Of a stretch of 64,000 bases of DNA, positions 2,294 to 34,471 are shown in pieces. The stretch is from the NCBI RefSeq assembly GCF_900111585.1, contig NZ_FOHI01000002.1, forward strand, positions 248,001 to 312,000, in the 5' to 3' direction. The position numbers and the translations under genes are program-made. How positions within the stretch are numbered: position 1 is the first letter of the stretch; each line of letters starts with the position of its first letter. The DNA is from Nitrosospira multiformis. GTDB taxonomy: Bacteria > Pseudomonadota > Gammaproteobacteria > Burkholderiales > Nitrosomonadaceae. The notes beneath the pieces are model-generated. The model worked only from the letters and a program-made list of their open reading frames with translations. It was not told the DNA's origin and did not search any database.

Positions 2294-2339
2294 ATGCCGG
2301 ATGGAGCAACTGAAGAACCGGAATCGGTAAAACGATGCA

Positions 2340-3182: not shown

Positions 3183-3229
3183 AATGTGAGAGGCTTGAAT
3201 TCCGATTCCGATCAACGGCGATAGGCAAC

Positions 3230-4306
3230 GTGAAAATAATAGAACGATATATCACGCGGGAACTGCTGATACCGTTTATGGTAGTCGCCGTGATCCTCGC
3301 GACATTGTTTGCAAGTTTCAGCACAGCCCGTTTTCTGGCCGGAGCAGTGACAGATTCGCTTGGCCTTGTCCCCGTGCTCAGGCTCGTGCTGCTGAAAACG
3401 CTGATCGCACTGGAAGTGCTGATGCCGATTGCCCTGTACGTGGCTGTCATCATGGGGCTGGGCCGCCTGCACCGGGACCAGGAAATAGTCGTTTTGCGTT
3501 CCGCCGGGGTCAGTGAGCATCGCATTATCTATGCAGTGCTCATCGTTGCGGTTCCTGTGGGGCTTATCAGTGGTTTCCTTTCCATTTTTGCGCGTCCGTG
3601 GGCGTATGAGGAAAGCTATCTGCTCAATGCCCAGGCAGAGGCAGAGTTGAATACGGATCGGTTCCGCGCCGGGCGTTTCTACGGCAGCGAAAAAAAAGGC
3701 CGAGTGATTTATGTGCAGTCCAAGGATAGCTCGGGCAAACAGATGAAAGAGGTATTCCATTATCTGAACAAGCATGACAGCAGCGAGATCATTCTTGCCA
3801 GGAAGGCTTACCAGCCCGAGCTTGTGTTCGGCCAGCGCCCCCAGATACATCTGCTGGATGGCTCCATTTACCGGCTATCGCACACCGGAAAGGGTGATAC
3901 CGTCGTCCAGTTTGAAAAGCTGGTTTATTTCACGGACAGCGGAAACGTAATGGATTACAGGCGCAAGGCTGCCCCTACCGCTGCATTGATGCAATCCGAT
4001 CGCCCACGGGATATTGCCGAGCTTCAGTGGCGGCTATCACGCCCGTTGGCAACGATCCTGCTGGCGCTGATAGCGGTGCCCTTCAGCCGCGCTTCGCCTC
4101 GCCAGACAAAGGGGGATAAGACTTATTATCTGGCAGCTCTGGTTTTTGCCATCTACTACATTTTGAGCGGATTGGCCCAGACCTGGGTCGAGCAGGGCAC
4201 AATCGGCAGGGTGCCGGGGGTATGGTGGCTCTATGCTGTCATGCTGCTGTTTGCAATCTCGTTATTGTTACCCGGTTTCTGGCGGAAGTTGCTTCTGCGC
4301 AGATGA
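3230..4306 (+). CDS. lptF: LptF/LptG-family permease, LptF-like (YjgP)
   Basis: A 358-residue inner-membrane protein that starts with GTG at 3230 (VKIIERYITRELL, the usual first line of the family). Three hydrophobic helices come at the N-terminus (about 15-35, 55-78 and 100-122). A large periplasmic domain of mostly beta strands follows (about 130-265), then three C-terminal helices. Known LptF pairs with LptG and the ATPase LptB to extract LPS from the inner membrane and pass it to LptC and LptA. The stop overlaps the lptG start as ATGA, giving translational coupling. In many relatives lptFG sits next to pepA; here it lies inside a lipid-enzyme run, so this could be either the LPS pair or a paralogous pair serving another lipid. 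Confidence 0.9.
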   Translation: MKIIERYITRELLIPFMVVAVILATLFASFSTARFLAGAVTDSLGLVPVLRLVLLKTLIALEVLMPIALYVAVIMGLGRLHRDQEIVVLRSAGVSEHRIIYAVLIVAVPVGLISGFLSIFARPWAYEESYLLNAQAEAELNTDRFRAGRFYGSEKKGRVIYVQSKDSSGKQMKEVFHYLNKHDSSEIILARKAYQPELVFGQRPQIHLLDGSIYRLSHTGKGDTVVQFEKLVYFTDSGNVMDYRRKAAPTAALMQSDRPRDIAELQWRLSRPLATILLALIAVPFSRASPRQTKGDKTYYLAALVFAIYYILSGLAQTWVEQGTIGRVPGVWWLYAVMLLFAISLLLPGFWRKLLLRR

Positions 4307-5367
4307 CGATAATTTACCGCTACCTGGCGCTTCAGGTTTTGATGGGTCTGGGAATCGCTACTGCAGTGCTTCTGCCGCTCTTCGGTTTCCTTGATTTGCT
4401 GGATCAGCTCGATGACGTGGGAAAGGGCACGTACAGCGTCAAGGATGCGTTTCTTTATACGGCTCTACTGCTGCCTCGACGGTTTATTCAACTCGCGCCT
4501 TTCATCGCATTGATGGGCAATGTAACTGCATTGGGAAGGCTTGCCGTCGGATCGGAACTCACGGCATTACGAGGAGCAGGTATATCTCCGCTGGGCATCA
4601 GTCTCGCACCGGTTGCCGTTGGAATAATTCTTTTACTGTTTATTACTGTACTGGATCAGTTCGTGGCGCCGCAATTTCAGCAGAAAGCCATTTCATCTCG
4701 CGCAGCCGCGCTTGAGAAGAGCGCGGCGCTTGGCAAGCAATTGGGGATATGGACGCGGGATGAGCGGAATATACTGCGAATCGGAGAAATGCTGCATGCG
4801 GGAAGGGCGGCGAACATCGAAATAATGCATTTTGACGATAATGGTTTCCTGTTACGCTATACGTATGCCAAGTATGCTGATATCATAAACGAGGGGTTGT
4901 GGGAGTTAAGGGACGTCGTCATAAAGACATTCAACGGCAATGCCATGGAGATCGTAAGCAGAGAATCGGTACCCTGGGAACCCTTCCTGAAGGAGGAGGA
5001 TATCTCGACATTGACCAAATCGCCGGAAAGTCTCTCACCTACCGAGTTATTTTTACATGTGCATTTTCTGCGCACCACGGGTCAGGAGTCGGATGCTTAT
5101 GAGCTTGCCTTGTGGCGCAAGGCGGGCGGTGCCCTGACGACCATCGCGATGCTGTTGCTTTCGATTCCCTTTGTTTTTGGATCGGTACGGGCGGGACTCG
5201 GCAACAGGCTCGTGGTTGCATCAATGCTCGGAATCAGCGTCTATCTCTTCGACCAGATCATTGCCAATGCCGGCTTGTTACTGCATTTGAATCCCGCGCT
5301 GAGCGCACTTCTTCCAGGAGTGGTGCTGATCGCCGTGGCTTATTTCTGGCTACGGCGAATTTTTTAA
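4303..5367 (+). CDS. lptG: LptF/LptG-family permease, LptG-like (YjgQ)
   Basis: A 354-residue partner of LptF. I start it at the ATG at 4303, which overlaps the lptF stop by four bases and gives the conserved opening MTIIYRYLALQVL. A frame 27 codons longer exists but extends into lptF. The architecture matches LptF: three N-terminal helices, a periplasmic beta domain (about residues 120-260) and three C-terminal helices ending in YFWLRRIF. Conserved family landmarks include LTALRGAGISPLGIS and the LPRRFIQLAPFIALMG loop. The likely role is the second half of the transmembrane dimer of an LptB2FG-type exporter. No lptA, lptB or lptC lies in the window. An 80-base gap with a strong hairpin separates it from the next gene. 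Confidence 0.9.
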   Translation: MTIIYRYLALQVLMGLGIATAVLLPLFGFLDLLDQLDDVGKGTYSVKDAFLYTALLLPRRFIQLAPFIALMGNVTALGRLAVGSELTALRGAGISPLGISLAPVAVGIILLLFITVLDQFVAPQFQQKAISSRAAALEKSAALGKQLGIWTRDERNILRIGEMLHAGRAANIEIMHFDDNGFLLRYTYAKYADIINEGLWELRDVVIKTFNGNAMEIVSRESVPWEPFLKEEDISTLTKSPESLSPTELFLHVHFLRTTGQESDAYELALWRKAGGALTTIAMLLLSIPFVFGSVRAGLGNRLVVASMLGISVYLFDQIIANAGLLLHLNPALSALLPGVVLIAVAYFWLRRIF

Positions 5368-5406
5368 CAAACTCCGGATTTGTTCACGATTTTCTTGACC
5401 TGAATG

Positions 5407-5427
5407 CCTCCCGCATCTCGCGGGAGG
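5407..5427. other. Perfect hairpin before the phosphatidyltransferase gene
   Basis: CCTCCCGC at 5407-5414 pairs with GCGGGAGG at 5420-5427 across a five-base loop. No T-run follows, so it is not a standard terminator. The right arm contains GGGAGG, the best Shine-Dalgarno-like string upstream of the gene, although it lies about 19 bases before the TTG start. The hairpin could act in attenuation, mRNA processing or translation control. Confidence 0.5.
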
Positions 5428-5446
5428 ACTTGCGAAACCTATCAAT

Positions 5447-10727: not shown

Positions 10728-10864
10728 AAGTATTCGACCTGTACACAAATACTACGATGACTGCGATGGGATGGCGAAAATTTAACTGCGATGCGACTCT
10801 TCATCCGCTTCAAATCTCCGGGCCCGAAATGCCGGCTTTTCCCTGCTTTCTGAAAAGCATCCTG

Positions 10865-17148: not shown

Positions 17149-18102
17149 GTGATAAATAAGGAACAGGATGCGGGATACCAGGAAGGCGATACCGTGCAGA
17201 TGCTGACGATAGCGCCGGAAACCGACTTGAGGGCGCCCGAATTGCAGCGCGCGGCTATCGACGCGCTGGAAGGGGGTGGGGTCATCTATCTGCCAAAAAG
17301 CGGATTTGAGTTGTCTGGCTATGAACGGGAGCTGATCTCTGACACGGCGAATATCCTGTCCCGAACGCCAGACGTCGAGGACGGGCGTCCAACCATCATT
17401 TTTGATCCAGAGCGTGGCCGTATCAAGAAATATCATTATGCTCAAGTGCGTGGAAAGATGATGCGGGCCCAGGTCAAGGACTCGGCCCGTCCTCGGATCG
17501 AGGCGATGATGTCTCGCTACAGCAAATGGACGGAGAGTGTCATCACTCAATTGTTCCCCACCTACCAGGGGGCCTTGGAGCGGAAACGCGTTACCTATCG
17601 GCCTTTTCCCCGCAATAACATCCAATCCCTGCACATTGATTCAAGCTATGGTTATCCCACGCAGGGGCGGAGCATGCTGCGCATATTCTCCAATATCAAT
17701 CCGGTCGACAGACTGCGTATCTGGCAGCTCGGTGAACCGTTTGAGCCCTTCGTGCGGCGCTTCTTGCCTGCCGTGCACCTGAGCGAACCGAGCTGGATCA
17801 CCTCTATTCTGGGCCGTCTCGGCATCATCGACGGTCCCAAGACCCCATACGACCGTTATATTGCAACCTTGCGTTCTCTCGGCATGCGCGACAAGGAGTA
17901 CCAGCGGACAGCACCGCGCAAGGTCATGGAATTTCCCGCAGGCGCGAGCTGGATTGCGATCACCGATCTGGTGTTGCATGGGGCCATATCGGGGCAGCAT
18001 AGTCTCGATCAGACCTTTTATTTACCAGTGGAGGCGATGAAGGATTCCTCGCGCTCCTCATTGCGTATTCTGGAGAGGTTGGCGGGCGAGGCTTTAGTTT
18101 AA
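17149..18102 (+). CDS. kdoO: Kdo 3-hydroxylase, Fe(II)/2-oxoglutarate dioxygenase
   Basis: A 317-residue protein of the Kdo hydroxylase family, which converts Kdo in the LPS inner core to Ko (D-glycero-D-talo-oct-2-ulosonic acid). Landmarks are VIYLPKSGFELSGYERELIS near the N-terminus, QSLHIDSSYGYPTQG with the H-x-D iron site at His162 and Asp164, and WIAITDLVLHGAISGQHSLD carrying candidate distal His residues (277 or 284). The listed start is GTG 17149. A GTG at 17194, with GGAAGG seven bases upstream, is an equally good start and would shorten the N-terminus by 15 residues. It is not overlapped by its neighbours and is probably transcribed alone. The enzyme needs oxygen, consistent with an aerobe. 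Confidence 0.85.
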   Translation: MINKEQDAGYQEGDTVQMLTIAPETDLRAPELQRAAIDALEGGGVIYLPKSGFELSGYERELISDTANILSRTPDVEDGRPTIIFDPERGRIKKYHYAQVRGKMMRAQVKDSARPRIEAMMSRYSKWTESVITQLFPTYQGALERKRVTYRPFPRNNIQSLHIDSSYGYPTQGRSMLRIFSNINPVDRLRIWQLGEPFEPFVRRFLPAVHLSEPSWITSILGRLGIIDGPKTPYDRYIATLRSLGMRDKEYQRTAPRKVMEFPAGASWIAITDLVLHGAISGQHSLDQTFYLPVEAMKDSSRSSLRILERLAGEALV

Positions 18103-18298: not shown

Positions 18299-19603
18299 AT
18301 GAGTGCCTGGAGTATCGACAGAATTACGCAGGCATTGAGCGGTGCAATGTGGACGTTCTCTTCCCTGCCTGATGACAACTCAGCCGCCACTTTTGTCCAT
18401 CGATGTTTCCGGCGGGAAAGCTGGCGGGATGCCGGGTTTCGCGAACGCACCCTCATGTATGCGGCTTTGCCGTTTGCGCCATTCGTCACCCTGGTGTTGG
18501 CTATCGCCTTCACTGCGCTTAACGGACAGGCTATAAAGAAGCAGACCGGAAAAAGGATAATCCGGCAAGTCCGGGAGCAGTTTGAGATCGCGCTGCGATA
18601 CGCGATTTTGCCCCCCTGGTATTATATTTTTGAACTCCATGACGACGACAAGCGGCAGCGCGCTTCTGAATACATCAACCGCTTTGAAGTAAAAACCTGC
18701 CTCTACCGCGTCCTCCGCGACTACAACGGTGGTCTTCCCATCCCTGCAGAGCGCAGCACCTCCTGCATCAAGGACAAATTATGCTTCCTGTCACGCTGTC
18801 GTAGGTTCTCTATTGCCACAGCTCCTGTGTTTTTGATTGTCTCAAAGGGGGAGATCAAATCGATTGATTGGAGGGGTTCCCTGCTCCCGGAAACCGATCT
18901 GTTCGTGAAACCGCTGCAGGGCGAGAACGGGAAGAATGCGGTACGGTGGGATTATCTGGGTTCGGGGCAATATCGGCGCAACGATGGTAAACACGCCACC
19001 GCCCAAGAGGTGCTGGAGAGCCTGTGCAAGGCATCATGGCGCAGGTCTTTCCTGGTGCAGCCACGGCTTGTTAACCATAGAGAGGTTGCTGATCTTGCAA
19101 ATGGCACCTTGGCGACGGTACGGGTAATGAGCTGCCGTAATGAACGGGGTGAATTCGAAGCAACCAATGCGGTTTTTCGAATGGCGCAGAATGAGGCCGT
19201 GGTTGTCGATAACTTTCACAGAGGCGGAATCGCGGTCAATGTCGATCTTCATACCGGAGAATTGGGAAGCGGCACCTGCGGAGCGTGGGGATCTACAGGA
19301 GGAGGATGGTACGAGCGACATTACAAGACAGGCGTGCAGATTCTGCACCGCAAGCTTCCGTATTGGGCCGAGGTGCTCGACCTGGTTCGATACGCCCATG
19401 AGAATGCATTTTCGGACCAGGTGGTGATTGGCTGGGATGTTGCCCTGCTCGACAGCGGGCCGTGCATGATTGGAATCAACAAGGCTCCCGATCTGGATAT
19501 GATCCAGCGGATAGGTCGGTGCCCGCTGGGTAACGAGCGGTTCGGGAAGCTTCTGGCATTCAACCTGGAATGCACTGTCAAGGCTATGGATCAGTCTTTT
19601 TAA
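18299..19603 (+). CDS. Membrane-anchored sugar-transfer-associated ATP-grasp protein, degenerate paralogue
   Basis: A 434-residue protein similar along its length to the gene at 25361. An N-terminal region is followed by a likely membrane helix at about residues 55-80 (AALPFAPFVTLVLAIAFTAL), then an ATP-grasp domain of the type found in exopolysaccharide loci. Compared with its paralogue two key sites are altered. The glycine loop HGRGG reads QGENG (about residues 205-210). The metal-binding Glu in the MEANKAPDLD segment is Gly392 here (MIGINKAPDLD). The rest of the domain (FLVQPRLVNHREVADLANGT, RVMSCRNERGEFE) is well kept, so it is expressed or recent rather than decayed. It may be a regulatory or scaffold partner of the intact copy. 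Confidence 0.75.
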   Translation: MSAWSIDRITQALSGAMWTFSSLPDDNSAATFVHRCFRRESWRDAGFRERTLMYAALPFAPFVTLVLAIAFTALNGQAIKKQTGKRIIRQVREQFEIALRYAILPPWYYIFELHDDDKRQRASEYINRFEVKTCLYRVLRDYNGGLPIPAERSTSCIKDKLCFLSRCRRFSIATAPVFLIVSKGEIKSIDWRGSLLPETDLFVKPLQGENGKNAVRWDYLGSGQYRRNDGKHATAQEVLESLCKASWRRSFLVQPRLVNHREVADLANGTLATVRVMSCRNERGEFEATNAVFRMAQNEAVVVDNFHRGGIAVNVDLHTGELGSGTCGAWGSTGGGWYERHYKTGVQILHRKLPYWAEVLDLVRYAHENAFSDQVVIGWDVALLDSGPCMIGINKAPDLDMIQRIGRCPLGNERFGKLLAFNLECTVKAMDQSF

Positions 19604-25360: not shown

Positions 25361-26683
25361 ATGAAGATTGTGAATGATCTGGGTATCGACAGGATCACGC
25401 GGGACTTGAGCGGTGCCATGTGGATCTTTGCCCGTTTGCGTGAAGACGACAGCTCCACGGCGACTTTTATCCACCGCTGCTTCCAGCGCGAGATCTGGCG
25501 CGAGATCAGGTTACGCGACAGGATCGCGATGTGCGCAGTTTTGCCAGCCGTGCCGCTCGTCATCATGGCGGTGACCGCTGTCTTCACCGCGCTCAACGGG
25601 TTTGCCATAAAGAGACGCACAGGAAAAGGAATCATCCGGCAGATTCGTGAGCAGATCGAGCTTGCGCTTCGCTGTGCGATCCTGTCTCCCTGGTACTACA
25701 TCTTCGAGTTGCATGACGATGATAAGAAGCGGCACGCCGGAGAGTATCTGAATCGCCTCGAAACGAAGGCCGGACTTTATCGCTTCCTGCGCGATTACAA
25801 TGGGGGTCTTCCTGTTCCTGCTGAACGAAGCACACCCTGCATTTCCGACAAATCGCGCTTCATGGCTCGTTGCCGCGAACATGGAATCATGACAGCCCCT
25901 GTCTTCTTCAAGATCATGGGAGAGAAGGTCACAGCAGTGGATTGGAATGGCTCCGGACTGCCGGAGACCGATCTCTTTGTGAAGCCATCGCATGGCCGGG
26001 GCGGTAGAAATGCGACTCGCTGGATTTACCTGGGTTCAGGGCAGTACCGGCGCAACGATGGCGAGATTCTGACCGGAAATCAGTTGCTGGAGCGCTTGCG
26101 ACTGGAGTCGCGGCAAAAAGCTTTCCTGATTCAGCCTCGGCTTCTGAATCATGAGGATATCGCAGACCTTGCCAATGGTACGCTGGCGACAGTGCGGGTA
26201 ATGAGCTGCCGTAACGAACGGGGCGAATTTGAAGTAACCAATGCAGTTTTTCGGATGGCCCGGAAAAAATCTGTGGTAGTGGACAATTTTCACGCTGGAG
26301 GAATTGCAGCCAACGTCGATATTCGCACCGGTGAATTGGGAAGAGGAACCGGTGGCGCGTGGGGCGCGACTGCTGATGGATGGTACGAGCGCCATTGCGA
26401 GACGGGGGTGCAGATCTTGCACCGGAGGCTTCCATGCTGGCCTGCACTGGTCGATCTTGTGCAATATGCTCATGCCAGCGCCTTTTCCGATCAGGTGGTA
26501 ATCGGATGGGATGTTGCCCTGCTCAACAGCGGACCGTGCATAATGGAGGCCAACAAGGCCCCTGACCTGGATATCATTCAGAGAGTGGGAGGCGGTCCGG
26601 TTGGCGAGCAGCGGCTGGGAAAACTTCTGGCATTTAATCTCAGACAAACTGTCGAGACTAAATACAACAGGCCTGCCGCCTAG
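25361..26683 (+). CDS. Membrane-anchored sugar-transfer-associated ATP-grasp protein, intact paralogue
   Basis: A 440-residue protein starting MKIVNDLGIDRITRDLSGAM with GGAAG upstream. A likely membrane helix lies at about residues 58-82 (PAVPLVIMAVTAVFTALNG). The ATP-grasp domain keeps the glycine loop HGRGGRNATRW (about 211-221), FLIQPRLLNHEDIADLANGT, and the metal-binding segment MEANKAPDLD with Glu396. The Pfam type is found in exopolysaccharide clusters and is thought to be linked to sugar transfer. Related enzymes form amide or ester bonds through acyl phosphates, so attachment of an amino acid or acid to a surface glycan is possible. It is a paralogue of the gene at 18299, which has lost key residues. 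Its last four bases overlap the convergent LicC-like gene. Confidence 0.8.
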   Translation: MKIVNDLGIDRITRDLSGAMWIFARLREDDSSTATFIHRCFQREIWREIRLRDRIAMCAVLPAVPLVIMAVTAVFTALNGFAIKRRTGKGIIRQIREQIELALRCAILSPWYYIFELHDDDKKRHAGEYLNRLETKAGLYRFLRDYNGGLPVPAERSTPCISDKSRFMARCREHGIMTAPVFFKIMGEKVTAVDWNGSGLPETDLFVKPSHGRGGRNATRWIYLGSGQYRRNDGEILTGNQLLERLRLESRQKAFLIQPRLLNHEDIADLANGTLATVRVMSCRNERGEFEVTNAVFRMARKKSVVVDNFHAGGIAANVDIRTGELGRGTGGAWGATADGWYERHCETGVQILHRRLPCWPALVDLVQYAHASAFSDQVVIGWDVALLNSGPCIMEANKAPDLDIIQRVGGGPVGEQRLGKLLAFNLRQTVETKYNRPAA

Positions 26684-27465
26684 CGCTGCATGGTTACGCT
26701 TCTACTCAGCTTCTTCTCGCTGAAGAGTTCCTCTGCCTTTATCAGATCGGCGGGAAAATCAATTTCACACCAGGAGCTTTCCGGTACAAAACACGCTTTT
26801 ACCAGTTGTCTGCTGGCGAGGTTCTCTATTATGGAGAGGTACCAGGCTTTGAGTCCACTCTGATGTCGCAGCGCTTCCTCTAGGGTATCGCGAAAAAGCA
26901 GCGGCCCACGTTCCCTGAAAAGAACAAGGCCGACAGATTCGGCATTGATCTGATCTGTCGGGAGAGTCTTGCTGACATGTCTGACCCATCCGTTTTCATC
27001 CAGTTGGACTTTCATGTCATCCGCATCATAGACAGGCTTTTGATCTACACCGAGCGTAACAGGCGCTGGATCAGAGTCCAGCACTCTCGCCAGTAAAACT
27101 TCCTCAAACAGCGTATCCCCATTCAGAAGCAGAAAGTCGCGGTCCATGGCCGCGCGTGCGATCCAGCAACTTACCAGGTTATCCGTAATACTGAAAAAAG
27201 GGTTGAAAACGGTCTCGATCCTTCCATCGTTTCCATAACGCTGTTGCAGCAAAGTTTCAATCAGACAGGATTGGAAACCGGTGACCACTGTCACCTGATT
27301 GATCCCCGTTGAAAACAGGGCATCTATCTGCCATTCGATGATCGGTTTGCCTGAAATCGGCAACAGGCATTTGGGAATACTGGTTGTCAGCGGACCCAGC
27401 CGGTGTCCCTGGCCGGCGCTCAGAATAATCGCCTTGACAGGAGGTTTTTCTTCGCTACCCGCCAT
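26680..27465 (-). CDS. LicC-like sugar-phosphate/choline-phosphate nucleotidyltransferase
   Basis: A 261-residue NTP-transferase: KAIILSAGQGHRLGPLT is the nucleotide loop, IPKCLLPISGKPIIEWQIDA has the conserved Lys, and FLLLNGDTLFEE is the metal-binding site. The later stretch SSWCEIDFPADLIKAEELFS is typical of the phosphocholine/sugar-phosphate cytidylyl- or uridylyltransferase group. It is the last gene of a leftward operon with a HAD protein, epimerase, 2-hydroxyacid dehydrogenase, aldolase and KdsB-like enzyme, though 130 bases separate it from the HAD gene. It probably activates a phosphorylated product of that pathway. The nucleotide and substrate are not determinable here. Confidence 0.8.
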   Translation of the reverse strand: MAGSEEKPPVKAIILSAGQGHRLGPLTTSIPKCLLPISGKPIIEWQIDALFSTGINQVTVVTGFQSCLIETLLQQRYGNDGRIETVFNPFFSITDNLVSCWIARAAMDRDFLLLNGDTLFEEVLLARVLDSDPAPVTLGVDQKPVYDADDMKVQLDENGWVRHVSKTLPTDQINAESVGLVLFRERGPLLFRDTLEEALRHQSGLKAWYLSIIENLASRQLVKACFVPESSWCEIDFPADLIKAEELFSEKKLSRSVTMQR

Positions 27466-27595
27466 ATTGCAATCAGCTCCCGAAATGGAACAAGCCCTTG
27501 AAGGTTATATCTTTAAAGCATTCCCGGTTTTGTATCTGGCCGCTTGACGTGGAGTGAGTAGAGCATGCGGCTGGGCGCTGTTCATGAGGCTGTAT

Positions 27596-28237
27596 TCAAA
27601 GGAGTAATGGACTCAGGTCGGGTAGTACATCTACATGAGCTGGAAAAGGATTTTGATCGCCAGGGCGTACGCGGCCTATAAACGCGACATTGTTGACCAT
27701 GGCGCTCTGGTAATCGATCAAGGCGTCTCCGATCATCAGCACGCGCTCTGGCAGGAGGCGATGGGTAGTCAGGATATCCGCGATCAGTTTCTGCTTGGGA
27801 GTGGGTGAACCGCGCACAGCAGTAAAATAGGACCCCAGACCGCGGCGAACAACGATCGTGTTCAATTCGGTTTCCGGCGTACCGGATGCAACAAACAAGG
27901 GAATTCGTCCGGCTTCACGCTGAATCAGTTCCGCTGCGCCAGGGACCGGCGCGCTGGCAATCACAGCTTCGACCACCAGTTCGGAGAAGCGCTGATCGAG
28001 TTGCCGCTCCTCCTCCGCGGTGAGCGGAGGTTTTTCCAGCAGCGTTTCCTGAAAGTAACGGAATTTCTGATAGCGCGACATGCCGCCGTTCAGGACATGA
28101 TATTTCGCGACCTCGACCATTACCTCCTCGCCATATTCCTGGTAGAGATTGGCAAAGGCCTGTGTCTTGATTTCTCCTGATTCGACCACGACCCCGTCGA
28201 AATCGAAGATGATCGCTCGCCATGCAGCAGTCTTCAT
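27596..28237 (-). CDS. HAD-superfamily phosphatase or phosphomutase
   Basis: A 213-residue HAD protein: IIFDFDGVVVESGEIKTQAF supplies the nucleophile Asp (motif I), LFVASGTPETELN is motif II with Ser/Thr, SPTPKQKLIADIL gives the Lys (motif III), and VLMIGDALIDYQSAM is motif IV. The helical cap follows motif I, as in the phosphoglycolate phosphatase and beta-phosphoglucomutase subclass. The start overlaps the epimerase stop by four bases, so the genes are coupled. Removal of phosphate from an acid intermediate made by the aldolase and dehydrogenase upstream is a reasonable inference. Confidence 0.85.
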   Translation of the reverse strand: MKTAAWRAIIFDFDGVVVESGEIKTQAFANLYQEYGEEVMVEVAKYHVLNGGMSRYQKFRYFQETLLEKPPLTAEEERQLDQRFSELVVEAVIASAPVPGAAELIQREAGRIPLFVASGTPETELNTIVVRRGLGSYFTAVRGSPTPKQKLIADILTTHRLLPERVLMIGDALIDYQSAMVNNVAFIGRVRPGDQNPFPAHVDVLPDLSPLLL

Positions 28238-29163
28238 GCCTTGTTATCCGATGCCAGCGGTATGATTTCCTCATTTTCACCCGAATGATGCATGCTCTGA
28301 TGAATATCCTGAAGGCAATCCAGCAGTCCCTGGCCCAGATCGACATGCTCGTTCAGCACCAGCTTGCGGCCGATACGCGGCTGATAAGCATAAGGCGTTA
28401 CTTCGTAATGATGTCCCGCACGGGCTTCATCAAAACGCAGATCGACTTTCCAGGGCATGATTTCTGAAATCATTGTCATCACATCCTTGATATGCAGCCG
28501 CTCCTGCCCTGTCAGGATCAGGTGGCGATTCGCAAACTCCGGCCCCAGCACCTGTACGCTCATGCGTGCCGCATCTTCCACATGAATATATTCCCGAATT
28601 GCTTCTCCACTGCCGTGATAAGTAATCGAGTGCTGTTCCAGCGCCTCGTACAGCATGCGGTAGATGCCGTTTCTCGCGTCGGCGCGTCGGCCATAGAGCG
28701 AGCCATAGCGCAAAATACTATACTCCAGGCCATAACGTTCGTGGTAGGTTTCGATGAAACGTTCCGCTGCCTGCTTGCTAGCCCGGTAAAAGGAACCGGA
28801 TTCGGAATAGACGTAAATCGTGCTCGCGAAAACGAAGCGCCGGGCGCCGGCAAGACGCGCCGCTTCCAGCGTATGCATGTTACCCAGCACATTGATAGTC
28901 GCGGTAGCGATGGGTTTTTCCTGTGCTTCGTCAATATCTGCAATGGCGGCAAAATTATAAACTACGTCGGCACCGTGAGCCGCTTCCTTCACCTGCTCAA
29001 GATCCATGATGTCGCCAATGATCATCTCCTGATCCGCGCGCTGGTAGCGCGATGGAGAACGGTCGAACAGGCGCACCCGATAGCCCGAGTCAGAGAGAGC
29101 GTCGGCGACATGACTGCCCAGAAAACCACTGGCGCCATAGACAATGGCAATCTCGCTAGACAT
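28234..29163 (-). CDS. NAD-dependent sugar epimerase/dehydratase (extended SDR)
   Basis: A 309-residue extended short-chain dehydrogenase. The cofactor loop is VYGASGFLGSHVADALSDSG. NFAAIADIDEAQEKP and FASTIYVYSESGSFYRASK give the Ser/Tyr/Lys site, with Tyr and Lys in YRASK. LRYGSLYGRRADARNGIYRM is the usual substrate-binding segment. Relatives epimerise or dehydrate NDP-sugars in the cytosol. It lies 8 bases after the dehydrogenase gene and overlaps the HAD gene by four. Its presence means the pathway includes a nucleotide-linked sugar as well as a keto acid. Confidence 0.85.
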   Translation of the reverse strand: MSSEIAIVYGASGFLGSHVADALSDSGYRVRLFDRSPSRYQRADQEMIIGDIMDLEQVKEAAHGADVVYNFAAIADIDEAQEKPIATATINVLGNMHTLEAARLAGARRFVFASTIYVYSESGSFYRASKQAAERFIETYHERYGLEYSILRYGSLYGRRADARNGIYRMLYEALEQHSITYHGSGEAIREYIHVEDAARMSVQVLGPEFANRHLILTGQERLHIKDVMTMISEIMPWKVDLRFDEARAGHHYEVTPYAYQPRIGRKLVLNEHVDLGQGLLDCLQDIHQSMHHSGENEEIIPLASDNKA

Positions 29164-29171
29164 CTGCTGTT

Positions 29172-30119
29172 TTAACCTTTTTCCATTACACCCGCTTCGA
29201 TCAATCCGCGCACCAGATTTTCCGCGGCTTCCAGTTCCATGCGCTGACGCGATTCTTTTGCAAGAGAGCCGATATGTGACGTCAGAATTGCGTTATCGCA
29301 TTGCAGTAACGGGCCATGGTACGGTTCCTGCTCGAAAACGTCCATTGCCGCTCCCCCAAGCCGCCCACTGTTCAGGGCGTCGGCCAGCGCTGCTTCATCT
29401 ATCAGACCCCCCCGGGCCGTATTGATGACAATCGCGCCAGGCTTCATCCGCGCAAATGCTTTTTCATTCAACAGATGGTGAGTGTCCGCATCGTAGGTCA
29501 GGTGCAGACTGATAATATCCGCTTCGGCTATCAAGGTTTCAAAAGGTGTGAGTTTCACGCCTTCCATTCCCGGAGGCACTTCCTTTACATAGGTATCGTG
29601 TGCCACCACCTGCGCTTCGAACGCACGGCACAGTCGGGCTACACGTGATCCCACCCGCCCAAGCCCCACAATTCCCACCTTTTGGGCAGCCAGCAGGCCT
29701 CCCTGGGCCCTGGGCCACTGCCCCGCGTGAACCAGTTTATCTGTCTGGCATATCTTCCTCAATGCTGCCATTATAAGAGCCAGCGAGAGTTCGGCAACCG
29801 CCTGGGCGGGAGCTTCCGGCGTGTTCAACACCTTGATTCCGTGCCGCTTCGCTGCACCAAGATCGACGCTGTCGAGGCCGCTGCCGCAGCGCGATACGAC
29901 TTTCAGGCTCTTGGCACAGGAGAAAACCCGCTCTGTGAGAGGCTCCACGCCTGCGATCATCCCCACCGTATCTTCGCCCAGCAGGGCGATAACCTCCTCC
30001 TCGGTAAGTTTCCGCTTATGACTGTTTTCGGCAATGTGTATGCCTCTCTCCTGTAAAGGCCGGAGAGCCATATTATGGCTGACGTCGAATGACGAGGTGG
30101 AGATCGCAAGTTTGTTCAT
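29172..30119 (-). CDS. D-isomer-specific 2-hydroxyacid dehydrogenase
   Basis: A 315-residue protein related to phosphoglycerate dehydrogenase. The Rossmann loop is VGIVGLGRVGSRVARLCRAF with Asp in AHDTYV. The catalytic Arg lies in INTARGGLIDEAAL, Glu in VFEQEPYHGP, and His in LTSHIGSLAKES. No ACT domain is present, so it is shorter than SerA. Such enzymes interconvert 2-keto and 2-hydroxy acids using NAD(H). The start overlaps the aldolase stop by four bases, so aldolase product and dehydrogenase substrate are likely linked. It could supply a glycerate or other hydroxy acid substituent for a glycan. Confidence 0.85.
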   Translation of the reverse strand: MNKLAISTSSFDVSHNMALRPLQERGIHIAENSHKRKLTEEEVIALLGEDTVGMIAGVEPLTERVFSCAKSLKVVSRCGSGLDSVDLGAAKRHGIKVLNTPEAPAQAVAELSLALIMAALRKICQTDKLVHAGQWPRAQGGLLAAQKVGIVGLGRVGSRVARLCRAFEAQVVAHDTYVKEVPPGMEGVKLTPFETLIAEADIISLHLTYDADTHHLLNEKAFARMKPGAIVINTARGGLIDEAALADALNSGRLGGAAMDVFEQEPYHGPLLQCDNAILTSHIGSLAKESRQRMELEAAENLVRGLIEAGVMEKG

Positions 30120-30877
30120 AGAGCTTCCCTGATGTTTTGCAAATGACTGCGGCAGACGGTATCGAGAATGCGGATATCCAGGCCATAGCCAAGAAAACTG
30201 AAGCCCGCCTCGATATTTCGACGCAACTGTTCCGGATGGGGTTCGACTACATGAATTCCGCCTGCCTTGCCTGCGCGTCGCCCGGCATCTTTTACCCGTT
30301 CTATCGCAGCCTGGACTTCCGGATCATCGAGTTCTCCTGGACGGCCGAGTGATCCCGAAAGATCGTAGGGGCCTATGATATAAGCATCGATTCCCGGAAC
30401 GGAAAGAATCGAATCGATGGCATCGACCGCATCGATATGCTCGATCATGGCAATGATGACTGCATTTTCTTCCAGCCAGTGGCGATATTGCTGAAACCGC
30501 GCACCATACCCTTGGGCGCGCGCGAGGCCGACCCCCCGTTGTCCACGTGGAGGGTAATATACTGCGTTTACGGCCGCTTCGGCATCCGCCGCCGTTTTGA
30601 TCATGGGCACCATTACGCCTGTTGCCCCCGCATCCATGATCCGCTTGATCTGGTCAGGATGATTCGACGTCAATCGCACGATGGCGGGGCATGCACGGCT
30701 GTCGAGCACCTGGATCAGCATCTGAACTTCGCTCAGTTCCAGAACGCTGTGTTCCGTATCCAGCACCAGCCAGTCAAATCCCGCCGCAGCCATGATATCG
30801 GCGATGGAAGGATGTCCCAAGGTGATCCAGGAGCCGATGGTCAAGGCGTTGCGGGCCAGTTTTGCTTTTAATTGCAC
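30116..30877 (-). CDS. HpcH/HpaI-family class II pyruvate aldolase
   Basis: A 253-residue TIM-barrel enzyme: SWITLGHPSIADIMAAAGFD, LVLDTEHSVLELSE, GATGVMVPMIKTAADAEA, YYPPRGQRGVG and IIGPYDLSGSLGRPGE are the hallmark blocks, with metal ligands Glu and Asp in the MIEHID and GPYDLS regions. The family reversibly adds pyruvate or a related keto acid to an aldehyde. In this operon it sits directly after a KdsB-like CMP-transferase, so making a deoxy-ulosonic acid by aldol addition is an attractive inference. Breakdown chemistry, as in aromatic degradation, fits the neighbours less well. Confidence 0.85.
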   Translation of the reverse strand: MQLKAKLARNALTIGSWITLGHPSIADIMAAAGFDWLVLDTEHSVLELSEVQMLIQVLDSRACPAIVRLTSNHPDQIKRIMDAGATGVMVPMIKTAADAEAAVNAVYYPPRGQRGVGLARAQGYGARFQQYRHWLEENAVIIAMIEHIDAVDAIDSILSVPGIDAYIIGPYDLSGSLGRPGELDDPEVQAAIERVKDAGRRAGKAGGIHVVEPHPEQLRRNIEAGFSFLGYGLDIRILDTVCRSHLQNIREAL

Positions 30878-30927
30878 GTATGAACCTTGAGAAATGAATT
30901 GCGTTCGAGAGAGTTATAGAGTCCGCA

Positions 30928-31695
30928 TCAGTATGATGCGAGTAACGGGTCTTTCTCCATCAGTCTGGCTACACGCTCCAGGTCGGCCTGGGTATCGACA
31001 GCTTGGGTATTGAACCGGGTTTCCACCATTTTTACACGATAACCATGCTCCAATAGCCGCAGCATGTCCACCGATTCAAGCTTCTCGAGCGGCGTGGATG
31101 GCAGCCTGAAGAATTCGAGCAACGTTTTACGGCGGAAAGGAATGATGCACACCTGTTTGAAGGCCAGAGTATGTGGAAAATCAGAGCCGGCGGACAGGGC
31201 GGGCGCCGGCACAGTCGGAATCGGCTGGCGTGACATGAAGAGGGCGTCGCCACGCTGGTCTGTAACAACCTTGATTGTATTGAAGTCGTAGAAGTCCCCT
31301 TTATTATCGATGCTCCGCATGAGATTCACGCAACCCAGTTCCGGATCATGCCGGAATGGAGCCACTGCTGCGTCGATCATCTCCGGGTGAGTCATCGGTT
31401 CATCGCCCTGTACCATGACGATAAGTTCAGCATCGATTTCTGCCACCGCCTCGGCCACCCGGTCGCTCGCACGTTCGTGAGTATCTGCGGTCATAATCAC
31501 CGGCGCACCGAAATTCTCTGCGGCGCGTCGTATTTCGTCATCGCAGGTGGCTATATAGGTTGCATCAAGCGCCTTGCTCAAGGCGACACGTTTATACACA
31601 TGCTCGAGCATGGTTCGGCCCAGCAGATTCGCAATGGGTTTTCCTGGAAAACGGGACGAACCCATACGGGCCGGTATAACAGCAATTGTTTTCAT
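30928..31695 (-). CDS. KdsB-like CMP-ulosonate cytidylyltransferase
   Basis: A 255-residue protein of the KdsB family: AVIPARMGSSRFPGKPIANL is the nucleotide loop, TADTHERASDRVAEA corresponds to the usual SGTDR segment but reads RASDR, and VMVQGDEPMTHPEM matches VQGDEP. DFNTIKVVTDQRGDALFMSR is typical. KdsB activates Kdo with CTP for lipid A-core synthesis. The substitutions and the operon with an aldolase and a hydroxyacid dehydrogenase suggest a paralogue for another ulosonic or sugar acid. It could equally be the cell's only KdsB; kdsA and kdsD are not in the window. It is the first gene of the leftward operon. Confidence 0.75.
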   Translation of the reverse strand: MKTIAVIPARMGSSRFPGKPIANLLGRTMLEHVYKRVALSKALDATYIATCDDEIRRAAENFGAPVIMTADTHERASDRVAEAVAEIDAELIVMVQGDEPMTHPEMIDAAVAPFRHDPELGCVNLMRSIDNKGDFYDFNTIKVVTDQRGDALFMSRQPIPTVPAPALSAGSDFPHTLAFKQVCIIPFRRKTLLEFFRLPSTPLEKLESVDMLRLLEHGYRVKMVETRFNTQAVDTQADLERVARLMEKDPLLASY

Positions 31696-32055
31696 GTGGG
31701 ATTTATGTTAATTGAAGGCGATGAAGCCGAGCTTTTCACTTTGACTGATGACTGCCTTTATTTATCGGGATAGGTTGCCCTTAAAGGTGCGCATCAGGCA
31801 TCGGAGGATTATACAGTGAGTGATTTCTGAAGCTATGTTTTGGCGATTGCAGCAGGGGTGCCGCAAAAATCGGGCTAATGGCTCAGTGGTGACTCCATTT
31901 TAACAGAAGGCTGGGGAAGTAAAAACATCTGCAATGCTAGTAAAATCGTTATCAGCCCGTGTAAAATTGCAAGATTTTTCCCTGAGAATGTCTCAAGGGC
32001 CTCAAAATGAGGAGATGCAGCGTATTGCTTGCGTCCAAGGAATGGGTATGTTGGT
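31696..32055. other. Divergent intergenic region
   Basis: These 360 bases separate the KdsB-like operon (leftward) from the paralogue B glycosyltransferase (rightward). The sequence is AT-rich near 31900-31980 and probably contains both promoters. I see no gene, repeat or structured RNA that I can support. Confidence 0.5.
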
Positions 32056-33378
32056 ATGAAAGCTTTATTTTTCCTCCGTCATTATAATGACATCGATCAC
32101 ATTACACCGGTCATTTACAAATGGACCAGCAAGGGTCATACCTGCGACATTGTCCTGATCGGCAACTCGCGATTCCGCACGGATTATCGCATCGGATTCC
32201 TGAAAGACCTCAAGGGCGTGCGGATGGCCTACATTGCGGATGTATTGCCGCCGCTCGACTTTATCAGATGGTTTTTCCAGACGCTGATACTGATCCGTAG
32301 CCTGCGTCGCCCCTTCCTCGGGCCGATCATGAAGAAACTGGAGGAGGTTTATGATGCCAAGCGGCGCGAGCCGGTTTGGGAGCGCACAGCAAAGCACTTG
32401 CTGACCCGGAGTTTCGCAGCGAATGAGGAAGGCGTGGTGGTGTTTGACTGGATAGAACGCAATTCCTCCATCTGTGTGGAATGGGTCAAGGTGGTATTGG
32501 CGACGGCGCGCGGAATGGGGTTGGGTACGGTATCGCTGCCGCATGGGGACAGTCCCCACGCCAGTCAGTTGATCCGGCGGCGCGAGTTGCGGCTGGAGCC
32601 GGATACCACATTTGCCAACGCCGGTATTTTCGAGAAGGTTGTGGTGCCGAACGAGTTATGCTCAGTGCGCTTTCGCCCTTTCATGGATAACCAGAAACTT
32701 GCGATACTCGGTTCCCCACGCTACTGCGACGAGTGGCTCGCTAAACTGGCAATGTTGATGCCCCCATCACCGCTGACGCGCTCCGATAGCAACCTCAAGG
32801 TGGTGATGTTTCTGAGAAAGAGTAATTTTTCCACTTTCTGGGAAGAAGTGGGAGAGGTAGTGCGCATAGTGGCAGGCTTTCCTGGAGTGGAGCTTATAAT
32901 AAAGCCGCATACCCGCGGTGGCTGGCAGCAATCCCTGACAAAAGATGTTTCGCTCCGGCGTTTGCCCAACGTGCGGGTAGCGGGGGGCAGTCTTCATTCC
33001 ATCCATCTGATGAACTGGGCAGATGTCATTATCGATCTTGCCACCTCTGTAGTATTCGAGGCGGTAAAGGTCGGGAAGCCTGTACTGGCGGCGGATTACC
33101 TCCACGCCGGCCGCTCGGCTCTTGCTGAATACCTGCCGGAAGCAGAATTGCGTTGCCGCGATGATGTGTATAAACACATGGAAAAATTCCTTGCCCAAGG
33201 TTGTGATTCTTTTTATATAGAAGAGCATCGTCAGCGTTTCCTCAAGGAAATGATCGATGTAGGGGACCCGGACGTGTTATCGCGTTATGTCGCGCTGCTG
33301 GAGGGACAAGTGCGGCCAAAGGCAGACCAGAGTCAGCCTGAGTCGCAAAGCAACACCAAAGATTTTGCTTTTGCCTGA
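32056..33378 (+). CDS. Glycosyltransferase-like protein, paralogue B
   Basis: A 440-residue protein similar throughout to the gene at 15484. I start at ATG 32056 because it gives MKALFFLRHYNDIDHITPVI, matching the paralogue; a TTG nine codons upstream is possible but not shared. The same landmarks are present: LGTVSLPHGDSPHASQLIRR, IKPHTRGGWQQSL, VIIDLATSVVFEAVKVGKP and AADYLHAGRSALAEYLPE. The C-terminus carries a Gln/Ser-rich tail absent from the other copy. It precedes a GT2 gene by 46 bases in the same direction. Function is inferred only from context and GT-B-like motifs. Confidence 0.65.
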   Translation: MKALFFLRHYNDIDHITPVIYKWTSKGHTCDIVLIGNSRFRTDYRIGFLKDLKGVRMAYIADVLPPLDFIRWFFQTLILIRSLRRPFLGPIMKKLEEVYDAKRREPVWERTAKHLLTRSFAANEEGVVVFDWIERNSSICVEWVKVVLATARGMGLGTVSLPHGDSPHASQLIRRRELRLEPDTTFANAGIFEKVVVPNELCSVRFRPFMDNQKLAILGSPRYCDEWLAKLAMLMPPSPLTRSDSNLKVVMFLRKSNFSTFWEEVGEVVRIVAGFPGVELIIKPHTRGGWQQSLTKDVSLRRLPNVRVAGGSLHSIHLMNWADVIIDLATSVVFEAVKVGKPVLAADYLHAGRSALAEYLPEAELRCRDDVYKHMEKFLAQGCDSFYIEEHRQRFLKEMIDVGDPDVLSRYVALLEGQVRPKADQSQPESQSNTKDFAFA

Positions 33379-33424: not shown

Positions 33425-34471
33425 ATGCCGGCGATGCCACCCATCGATGTGGTGATTCCCGTCTATAATGCACCGGTGTTGACACGGCGCTGCATCGATT
33501 CGGTCGTTGCCTGCCTGAGCCAATCCATACGCTTCATTTTCATTCAGGACGATGCCTCGGGCATGGAAACCCACGCCATGCTGGATCAATTGCCGTGCGA
33601 GCGCATACGCGTGCACCACGCGCGGGAGAACCAGGGTTTCGGCGCCTCGGTAAACGAAGCAATCGGTCGATCCGACGCATGCTACGTGTTGGTCCTGAAC
33701 TCCGACACAGTAGTGGGTGAAGATTTTTTACCGCTCTTATACGCAGCATTCGTCGCTGATTCCCGGTTGGCGGTCATCATCCCTGCGGGGAATGATTTTG
33801 CCAGATATGATTTGAACCGGTATGTGCGGCAGCCAGGCGGCTATGTTCAGACACACCGCCTTCGGGGTCACGCGTTTCTCATCCGCCGGGAGGTATTCCG
33901 GGATGCGGACGGTTTCGATCTGGCATTCGGCCGCGGCTACTATGAAGATGTCGATCTTGGGCGCCGGCTCAACAAGCGCGGTTGGCGGGTGGGCGTGCAT
34001 CCGGACGCTCACATACAACATGAGGGTGGTGGATCGTTCGGTCGCGGCCGCTCTTTCAAGAAACTGGTCAGGCGCAATCGTAAGCTTTTTTTTTCGCGCC
34101 ATCCCAGCGCAAAGCGTAATATTCTCCTTCTTTCCGGAGACTGCCCGCTGGCGGGTTTTCCATTGAGCCTGCTGGAGGCGCTCGACGATGTGTTTTGCGG
34201 AGGAGGATACGTTTACTGGCTTTCGCCCGAAGCGGCAGGCATGCTTCTCTGTTTGCAGATGAGGAGTCTCTCGTCGGGCGTGGATGCTGCCGTGAGGCTA
34301 TTCTTATGCAGTTGGCGTGAGGACAAGCGTATTTCGGAAATCTGGATATTGCCCGATGTCCCACGCTTGCGATATGGAGCGCTGACCTTATGGGCGCGTA
34401 TTTGCGGCTTGCGGATACTGACCTGGGAAAGAGCGCCTGCCGAGGAAAATTGTACTCCTAAGCTACTTTGA
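33425..34471 (+). CDS. GT2-family glycosyltransferase (rhamnosyltransferase-like)
   Basis: A 348-residue GT-A protein: DVVIPVYNAPVLTRRCIDSV opens the domain, FIQDDASG is the nucleotide Asp, VLVLNSDTVVGEDFLPLL is the DxD-type site (NSD), and GHAFLIRREVFRDADGFD with GRGYYEDVDLGRRL is the ED(V)D acceptor region. The last 120 residues are atypical and lack a clear domain. An inverting transferase adding rhamnose or another deoxyhexose to a surface glycan is likely. It closes the polysaccharide region; the next gene, corA, is on the other strand 120 bases away. Confidence 0.85.
   Translation: MPAMPPIDVVIPVYNAPVLTRRCIDSVVACLSQSIRFIFIQDDASGMETHAMLDQLPCERIRVHHARENQGFGASVNEAIGRSDACYVLVLNSDTVVGEDFLPLLYAAFVADSRLAVIIPAGNDFARYDLNRYVRQPGGYVQTHRLRGHAFLIRREVFRDADGFDLAFGRGYYEDVDLGRRLNKRGWRVGVHPDAHIQHEGGGSFGRGRSFKKLVRRNRKLFFSRHPSAKRNILLLSGDCPLAGFPLSLLEALDDVFCGGGYVYWLSPEAAGMLLCLQMRSLSSGVDAAVRLFLCSWREDKRISEIWILPDVPRLRYGALTLWARICGLRILTWERAPAEENCTPKLL

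Follow-up and report, generated by a model that had tools for sequence, protein, structure and literature searches.

Five adjacent genes of Nitrosospira multiformis form a conserved cassette that looks made for producing and activating a Kdo-like acid sugar of the cell surface. We consider it fairly likely that this cassette is a pathway to a CMP-activated 2-ulosonic acid other than Kdo. Observed directly, and described below, are the make-up of the gene set and how well it is conserved, the retained catalytic residues, the clade of the KdsB-like enzyme and the absence of marker genes. Positions refer to the window, meaning the whole 64,000-nucleotide stretch that was analyzed.

Gene content of the locus

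Six minus-strand ORFs fill positions 26680-31695 exactly. Four-base overlaps join the aldolase and dehydrogenase genes and the SDR and HAD genes, and the remaining gaps are 8 bases (dehydrogenase-SDR), 50 bases (KdsB-aldolase) and 130 bases (HAD-LicC). An earlier sequence-only reading had described six leftward genes with two such overlaps, and the ORF coordinates bear this out. The features used in this analysis are:

30928..31695, minus strand: KdsB-like cytidylyltransferase of 255 aa at the head of the cassette, with clade signatures ERASDR, KQV and ESVDMLR
30116..30877, minus strand: HpcH/HpaI-type class II pyruvate aldolase, 253 aa, GTG start
29172..30119, minus strand: D-2-hydroxyacid dehydrogenase, PGDH/hydroxypyruvate-reductase-like, 315 aa
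28234..29163, minus strand: extended SDR, sugar epimerase/dehydratase-like, 309 aa
27596..28237, minus strand: HAD phosphatase, 213 aa
26680..27465, minus strand: LicC/NTP-transferase-like gene, 261 aa, a neighbor here but outside the conserved cassette
32029..33378, plus strand: divergent GT-B-fold transferase, 449 aa, with an HG...KPH motif
33425..34471, plus strand: GT2 glycosyltransferase, 348 aa, adjoining the GT-B gene
17149..18102, plus strand: homologue of the Kdo 3-hydroxylase KdoO (PF11004, 294 bits)
3230..5367, plus strand: retained export permeases LptF and LptG (3230-4306 and 4222-5367)

Domains of the six genes were assigned by Pfam and NCBIfam profile searches. Scores were 152.8 bits for the KdsB-like protein (Pfam CTP_transf_3), 124 bits against a cut-off of 25 for the aldolase (HpcH_HpaI, PF03328), 194.8 bits for the dehydrogenase (2-Hacid_dh_C, PF02826), 148.9 bits for the SDR (Epimerase), 60.8 bits for the HAD protein (Hydrolase) and 48.2 bits for the LicC-like protein (NTP_transferase), in agreement with the enzyme names given in the earlier reading. 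PDB sequence searches with the SDR and HAD proteins returned general homologues only. The cassette is surrounded by glycosyltransferases, an O-antigen-ligase-like protein and NeuB/NeuA-type genes. The latter include a NeuB family protein at 9849-10748, apart from the five cassette genes, and a NeuA-like protein at 8647-9849 that is fused to a KdsC-like domain (TIGR01670, 144 bits over a cut-off of 106.95).

Conservation of the cassette

Eighty loci, 50 from Nitrosomonadaceae and 30 from outside this family, were sampled from 240 aldolase relatives. Because the sample contains near-copies, and because some contigs, going by their length and range, are shared with G-handle loci (L140 and L119; L133 and L120), locus counts should not be considered independent events. 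Score floors retained 77 KdsB, 78 dehydrogenase, 67 SDR and 63 HAD sequences from the 80 loci.

At E ≤ 1e-40, the aldolase was found in 59 of 61 Nitrosomonadaceae genomes, including all 50 of the good ones. The five genes were contiguous, on one strand and in the same order in 46 of the 50 family loci examined. Going by this recurrence, the grouping of the five genes, but not that of the LicC-like gene, is far beyond chance. A conserved six-gene operon had been proposed, but only its five-gene part recurs: the LicC-like gene adjoins the HAD gene in only 5 of 20 loci, and a six-gene unit was ruled out because this gene is not kept with the other five.

Beyond the family, cassettes are sparse and occur in other phyla, and some sit with TIGR04326/TIGR04331 surface-carbohydrate proteins. 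Among the 30 outside loci, counted with identity floors of 38% (KdsB), 45% (SDR) and 38% (SIS and Gfo/Idh), 28 had a KdsB-like gene no farther than 8 kb from the aldolase, 27 a dehydrogenase, 20 an SDR and 7 a SIS gene plus a Gfo/Idh gene; at these floors the SDR and the SIS-Gfo/Idh pair were found together in none. This division is not absolute, since one locus (L158) has an SDR plus a SIS gene at 34% identity, which is under the 38% floor. Without identity floors, other loci also give SDR matches at 25-32%, and looser clustering places SIS genes in 9 of 32 loci and Gfo/Idh genes in 9 of 32. No description of the five-gene cassette was found in the titles or abstract openings of the open-licence PMC literature that was searched.

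Absence of Kdo and lipid A markers

No Nitrosomonadaceae genome of the 61 gave a match over cut-off to KdsA (TIGR01362; best score 111.1 bits versus 314), KdsD/KpsF (TIGR00393; best score 56.1 bits versus 203.7) or LpxC, and the Kdo transferase WaaA (PF04413) was likewise found in 0 of 61. The same searches rang in some of 14 control genomes (over cut-off: KdsA in 4, WaaA in 3, KdsD in 3, LpxC in 4), and LptD was present in all 61 family genomes. For these two reasons, genome incompleteness was ruled out as the cause of the missing genes. The N. multiformis genome itself keeps LptF and LptG and has no LpxC match. Lipid A genes have already been recorded as absent in two species of these ammonia oxidizers (excerpt of PMC3087551). 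A domain search found no NeuB-type synthase among the five cassette genes; together with the 0 of 61 results for KdsA, KdsD and WaaA, this upholds the earlier statement that the gene set differs from the standard Kdo and sialic acid pathways.

The KdoO homologue shares its locus with the cassette in a genome that lacks Kdo markers. Homologues were detected in 11 of 61 family genomes by a search that operated without a positive control, as 0 of the 14 control genomes rang. Possibly, this enzyme tailors the cassette's sugar.

Aldolase and dehydrogenase

The aldolase residues D, H, R, E and D, which we take to be catalytic, were present in 80 of 80 loci examined, as was an invariant Tyr ahead of the metal Asp. 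The protein misses the equivalog cut-offs for HpaI (189.1 versus 368.8 bits) and GarL (177 versus 406.75 bits). In the dehydrogenase, the presumably catalytic R/E/H set was present in 76 of 78 sequences, the remaining two being gapped. Its nearest relatives are phosphoglycerate and glyoxylate/hydroxypyruvate enzymes. Note that a simple aldol route leaves the dehydrogenase without an explained role.

The KdsB-like enzyme

Cassette KdsB-like proteins formed a single long-stemmed clade in the tree (SH-aLRT 99, stem 0.95), separate from other KdsB proteins, which supports the earlier reading on this enzyme. The Mg-binding Asp pair, R10, K19 and R79 are kept in 77 of 77 cassette sequences. All 77 also have Q181 and D210-M211, where the commonest non-cassette types are H and E-Q. 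The motif RHIGVYAYR, which opens with an R-H pair, is termed substrate-binding in the excerpt of PMC7717453. This motif (RHIG.YAYR) is unmatched in the cassette enzymes, whose first two positions are K (75/77) and Q (77/77).

The earlier reading had instead taken RASDR as a hint of another substrate. ERASDR, which spans residues 74-79, marks the clade well. The loop, however, sits in the CTP-binding domain (excerpt of PMC3149649), and RASDR was rejected as a sign of a new sugar on this ground. Its last Arg is equivalent to R76 of Aquifex KdsB, as counted by hand via a KpsU alignment; in the excerpt of PMC3149649, R76 touches the cytosine and ribose. Judged from the residues, a non-Kdo substrate would be argued better from the changes RH to KQ and EQ to DM.

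In N. multiformis, TIGR00466 (kdsB) was matched by the cassette gene only, at 127.8 bits and so short of the cut-off of 155.2, while two broader KdsB subfamily models were passed (NF009905, 291.6; NF003952, 280.5). Of 13 hand-picked cassette genomes, nine had a second KdsB elsewhere that scored over cut-off and four had none (G272, G402, G636 and G637). The cassette enzyme itself exceeded the kdsB cut-off in G322 (165.8 bits), G375 (155.9), G632 (173.8) and G639 (174.3), and in G635 only when neighbors in frame were included. Because some cassette enzymes pass, the kdsB model cannot tell the two kinds of enzyme apart. G402 has a cassette-clade KdsB; the 9.6 kb on one side of it contain no aldolase, and the contig ends on the other. 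The earlier reading had regarded a sole, Kdo-specific KdsB as fatal to its proposal. The enzyme is indeed the sole TIGR00466 match in its genome, but specificity for Kdo is unlikely, given that KdsA, KdsD and WaaA lack matches over cut-off in that genome and in the family sample. We conclude that this is probably not a Kdo enzyme.

Proposed pathway

We infer the substrates, step order, acceptor and destination as follows. The HAD enzyme would prepare a free aldehyde sugar, a job that in other phyla might be done by the SIS isomerase and Gfo/Idh enzyme, sometimes with an IMPase. The HpcH-type aldolase would then condense this aldehyde sugar with pyruvate (or hydroxypyruvate), and a (3-deoxy-)2-ulosonic acid would result. 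Either the donor or the product may be modified by the 2-hydroxyacid dehydrogenase and the SDR, and the KdsB-like enzyme would convert the ulosonic acid to its CMP-activated form. A transferase, in Nitrosomonadaceae probably the divergently encoded GT-B protein, would place the acid onto a surface glycan.

The GT-B protein is a candidate user of the CMP-sugar by virtue of its position: in 48 of 50 Nitrosomonadaceae loci, its gene and that of the aldolase are no more than 6.5 kb apart. In some relatives, the GT2 gene forms a single open frame with the GT-B gene. A fold search with the GT-B protein returned GT-B/UDP-GlcNAc 2-epimerase folds (Z ~24) with no named donor or acceptor; a KpsC/WaaA-like Kdo transferase was not among the 50 fold matches listed, which excludes nothing.

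Alternative explanations

Ordinary Kdo could be the product of a non-orthologous pathway in which the aldolase replaces KdsA, the HAD or IMPase enzyme KdsC and the SIS enzyme KdsD, with a diverged KdsB performing the last step. The two cassette variants together offer an analogue for each Kdo step; moreover, the N. multiformis genome has no KdsB besides the KdsB-like protein, the kdsB cut-off is passed by some cassette enzymes and the locus also holds a homologue of a Kdo hydroxylase. We nevertheless judge this unlikely. WaaA is absent from 61 genomes and there is therefore no known lipid acceptor for Kdo, another KdsB is already present in 9 of 13 cassette genomes, the Kdo-binding motif is altered in the 77 sequences examined, and neither the dehydrogenase nor the SDR (or Gfo/Idh enzyme) would have a role. 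It is very unlikely that the cassette instead supplies a short hydroxy or keto acid (glycerate-like) as head group of a phosphosphingolipid, rather than a cyclic ulosonic acid. KdsB-family enzymes activate ulosonic acids at the anomeric hydroxyl, and the cassette is found again in 30 loci outside Nitrosomonadaceae. A phosphosphingolipid gene cluster may nonetheless lie at 1.1-8.7 kb of the window, whose NTP-transferase, CDP-alcohol transferase, lipid kinase and LptF/G genes resemble the Caulobacter ceramide-phosphoglycerate cluster; the five cassette genes are unnamed in the excerpted account of that cluster (PMC11324152). The kinship of the dehydrogenase to phosphoglycerate and hydroxypyruvate enzymes and the nearby LicC-like gene also fit a head group.

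The activated ulosonic acid might go into a variable surface polymer, a capsule or one resembling O-antigen, that is unrelated to the missing lipid A, with conservation in the family reflecting a shared capsule locus. This differs from our explanation in destination, not chemistry, and overlaps with it. The glycosyltransferases, O-antigen-ligase-like protein and NeuB/NeuA-type genes around the cassette are consistent with such a polymer, as are the scattered loci outside the family, some with TIGR04326/TIGR04331 proteins. However, capsule sugars are usually patchy in distribution, whereas the cassette is near-universal in the family (59/61), and we regard a capsule as a doubtful destination. 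For the non-Kdo CMP-ulosonic acid pathway that we favor, a larger role can be suggested only tentatively: a cross-phylum route using a pyruvate-type aldolase, absent from the searched literature, whose product in Nitrosomonadaceae might have taken the place of Kdo. There it would be the acidic inner sugar in a glycolipid that has no lipid A, is perhaps anchored on a sphingolipid and is carried to the outer membrane by the retained Lpt machinery.

Significance and comparison with known systems

These bacterial ammonia oxidizers are without lipid A genes (LpxC in 0 of 61 genomes) yet retain LptD (61 of 61), and the near-universal cassette, proposed to yield an activated ulosonic acid, provides a direct handle on what covers their outer membrane. 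If the proposed pathway is correct, an aldolase-based route joins the PEP-based ones already known for CMP-ulosonic acids. The clade signature is a means of finding the cassette in many phyla.

The TIGR04425/TIGR04326/TIGR04331 surface-carbohydrate families, which lie beside some cassettes outside the family, are likened to this system by label only; a literature search for them gave a single paper, in which one of the labels occurs once. By domain content only, the window resembles the Caulobacter phosphosphingolipid cluster CC_1168-CC_1152 in holding GNAT, CofC-like NTP transferase, LptF/G, CDP-alcohol transferase and lipid kinase genes; at least 13 of the 17 genes of that cluster are reported to have orthologues in N. 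eutropha (excerpt of PMC11324152). HpcH/HpaI aldolases (HpaI, GarL and RhmA) share PF03328 and the catalytic and metal residues with the cassette aldolase, which differs in scoring below the equivalog cut-off for each of the four models that it matched, in its invariant Tyr ahead of the metal Asp and in its biosynthetic gene context.

Sialic, legionaminic and pseudaminic acid pathways likewise make a CMP-activated ulosonic acid for the surface and employ SDR enzymes, but they rely on PEP synthases of the NeuB type together with NeuA-type enzymes, and such a pair is separate here (8647-10748). The Kdo pathway (KdsD-KdsA-KdsC-KdsB, then WaaA) also combines an aldehyde sugar with a C3 unit, uses a phosphatase and ends in CMP activation by a KdsB-fold enzyme. 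It relies on the PEP-dependent KdsA where the cassette has a pyruvate-type aldolase, to which the cassette adds a dehydrogenase and an SDR; the family sample has no KdsA, KdsD or WaaA over cut-off, and the sugar-binding residues of the cassette enzyme are changed.

Conservation of the gene cassette

The sequence-only reading described a leftward operon of six genes with two four-base overlaps. All six genes and both overlaps are seen among the window's open reading frames, and the family assignments hold when checked against Pfam and NCBIfam:

30928–31695, −: KdsB-like protein
30116–30877, −: HpcH aldolase
29172–30119, −: 2-hydroxyacid dehydrogenase
28234–29163, −: SDR protein
27596–28237, −: HAD phosphatase
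26680–27465, −: LicC-like (NTP-transferase-like) gene

The proposed grouping stands for five of these genes, which are kept together across loci, but not for the LicC-like gene. The latter directly follows the HAD gene in 5 of 20 loci and, of 50 Nitrosomonadaceae loci, 3 have it within 6.5 kb of the aldolase; it is therefore considered a neighbour rather than a member. The KdsB-like, aldolase and dehydrogenase genes occur together in all 20 loci (four genera of the same family), and SDR and HAD genes are also present in 19, the remaining contig ending first. Among the 50 Nitrosomonadaceae loci (L153, labelled Nitrosomonadales, and L188, labelled Betaproteobacteria, assigned by similarity), the five genes are contiguous, ordered and on the same strand in 46. 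Three of the four non-intact loci run into a contig end, and in the fourth, L212, HAD was not found. Nitrosospira multiformis Nl18 (L209) carries eight corresponding genes that are 97–100% identical to those of the window. In a sample of 61 genomes, taken as Nitrosomonadaceae by inference, the aldolase is found in 59 (50 of 50 good ones), and the two genomes without a match are 89% and 74% complete. Note that in L075 (genome G230, of the window's genus) the aldolase is split between two frames at about 9.7–10.4 kb, representing a pseudogene or a sequencing error.

Proposed pathway

The best reading of the cassette is a non-Kdo ulosonic acid pathway. In the sequences examined, residues that we take to be catalytic are retained by all five enzymes: D, H, R, E and D of the aldolase are kept in 80/80 sequences, R/E/H of the dehydrogenase in 76/78 (the other two are gapped), S, Y and K of the SDR in 67/67, and D and D of the HAD protein in 63/63. 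In the simplest reading, the HAD phosphatase would act first and the aldolase would then add the substrate to pyruvate. Tailoring would come next, before activation of the acid with CMP by the KdsB-like enzyme, and transfer by a glycosyltransferase would be the last step. The dehydrogenase is the weak point of this route. Phosphoglycerate, glyoxylate and hydroxypyruvate are the substrates of its closest relatives, and the enzyme may accordingly provide the donor of the aldol reaction, hydroxypyruvate, or work on the product instead.

Relationship to KdsB

A search of the window's own genome with the kdsB model TIGR00466 gave the KdsB-like protein as sole match, at 127.8 bits versus a cut-off of 155.2; the protein passes two broader KdsB subfamily models. 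In 200 genomes of the order, five same-family relatives are 72–77% identical to it and all others among the matches listed are ≤39% identical. In two genomes from another family of the order (G040 and G085, f40; 98–99% complete), no KdsB hit reached E ≤ 0.001.

In a quick tree of 91 proteins, made without bootstraps, the cassette enzymes group in a single clade (SH-aLRT 99, stem 0.95, 47 rows). Three rows labelled as not near an aldolase fall inside it. L091 and L093 are genes of L120 and L122, and in both an aldolase is nearby; for L089 (G402), no aldolase was found in 9.6 kb on one side, and the contig ends on the other. The single aldolase-near row outside the clade is a second KdsB:

L122 15094–15909, −: very divergent KdsB-type gene in the cassette region of G272, on a long tree branch

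All 77 cassette KdsB-like sequences examined keep the Mg-binding aspartates, R10, K19 and R79, the last being the residue that contacts CTP. In the sugar domain, H is replaced by Q (77/77), R by K (75/77) and the E-Q pair, which in KdsB presumably contacts Kdo, by D-M (77/77). The motif containing the R-H pair has been described as substrate-binding (PMC7717453). For 13 cassette genomes picked by hand from outside the family, KdsB places were matched to cassette loci by coordinate arithmetic. Nine have a separate KdsB over the cut-off elsewhere in the genome, and none was found over it in G272, G402, G636 (0.7 Mb Nealsonbacteria) or G637 (Sphingomonas). The cassette enzyme itself passes TIGR00466 in 4 of the 13 and in a fifth only with neighbours in frame, which speaks against a clean split of the cassette enzyme from other KdsB at this cut-off.

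Kdo, lipid A and Lpt genes

KdsA, KdsD, the WaaA N-terminal domain and LpxC were each over cut-off in 0/61 family genomes. Weaker matches occur for KdsA (52/61) and KdsD (57/61), which we infer to be DAHP synthases and CBS domains, respectively. Because LptD is present in 61/61, the missing markers are not due to incomplete genomes. The LPS exporter is to this extent kept in the family sample without LPS marker genes; LptF and LptG are encoded in the window, each above its equivalog cut-off. Lipid A genes were already reported lacking, with only lpxK in N. europaea and only lpxA in N. multiformis (PMC3087551). What is new here is that a lipid A marker is lost across the family sample, jointly with Kdo genes, and that LptD is retained. 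The cassette may be tied to a glycolipid that is built without lipid A and exported by Lpt, an appealing idea still short of proof.

Candidate transferase and neighbouring genes

15484–16836, −: GT-B protein, paralogous to the next
32029–33378, +: GT-B protein, divergent from the cassette
33425–34471, +: GT2 protein
17149–18102, +: homologue of KdoO (Kdo 3-hydroxylase; PF11004 294 bits, PDB 5y9i 145.8 bits)
8647–10748, −: NeuB-type synthase adjoining a fusion of a NeuA-like protein with a KdsC-like HAD domain
18299–19603 and 25361–26683, +: paralogous “sugar-transfer associated” ATP-grasp proteins

The GT-B protein at 32029–33378 (structure model pLDDT 77.6, pTM 0.82) is a candidate transferase by position only. 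In 48/50 family loci its gene and the aldolase are no more than 6.5 kb apart, and a distant relative (70.1 bits) is found beside a Rhodobacteraceae cassette (L211). GT-B and GT2 counterparts share one open frame of about 820 codons in L085, L155, L157 and L172, and the same joint frame is cut by a contig end in L153, which suggests a fused GT-B/GT2 transferase.

The KdoO homologue scores below the NCBIfam equivalog cut-off and was found in 11/61 family genomes. Finding it in this locus, when the genome lacks Kdo markers, is a hint, short of proof, that the substrate is Kdo-like. The NeuB/NeuA-like pair is a separate nonulosonic acid pathway.

Distribution outside the family

GTDB genomes were scanned with an aldolase alignment, and the best 80 of 240 confirmed relatives comprise the 50 Nitrosomonadaceae loci and 30 others, the latter mostly from MAGs, where contig misbinning is possible. 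Among these best 80, the 30 include Magnetococcales, Desulfarculus, Desulfobaccales, Thermodesulfovibrionia, an Olavius symbiont, SAR86, Achromatium, Rhodocyclaceae, Sulfuricella, Elusimicrobia, Omnitrophota, Nealsonbacteria, Desulfovibrio, Sphingomonas and Rhodobacteraceae. Within 8 kb of the aldolase, these 30 loci carry KdsB-like (28), dehydrogenase (27), SDR (20), HAD (16), SIS and Gfo/Idh (7) and IMPase (3) genes. SDR and SIS/Gfo-Idh never occur together at the set identity floors (the one near-exception is L158, where a SIS gene of 34% identity accompanies the SDR), and 3/30 loci have neither. The pattern suggests that a shared core of aldolase, KdsB-like enzyme and dehydrogenase is combined with either of two exchangeable gene sets for preparing or adjusting the sugar. 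Extras in some loci are a methyltransferase, an AroB-like cyclase (TIGR04425) and TIGR04326/TIGR04331 surface-carbohydrate proteins. AroB-like “sugar phosphate phospholyase (cyclizing)” genes stand beside SIS/Gfo-Idh cassettes in L134, L147, L197 and L202; the family call TIGR04425 was made on the protein of L197, and the remaining three were assigned by similarity.

Sphingolipid-like cluster

1139–8690, +: consecutive genes for GNAT, MobA/CofC-like NTP transferase, LptF, LptG, CDP-alcohol transferase, lipid kinase and a protein of no assigned family

The Caulobacter phosphosphingolipid cluster has 17 genes, at least 13 of which are reported to have orthologues in N. eutropha, a species also reported to carry ceramide genes (PMC9386255, PMC11324152). 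By domain content, the genes at 1139–8690 resemble part of that biosynthesis and transport cluster.
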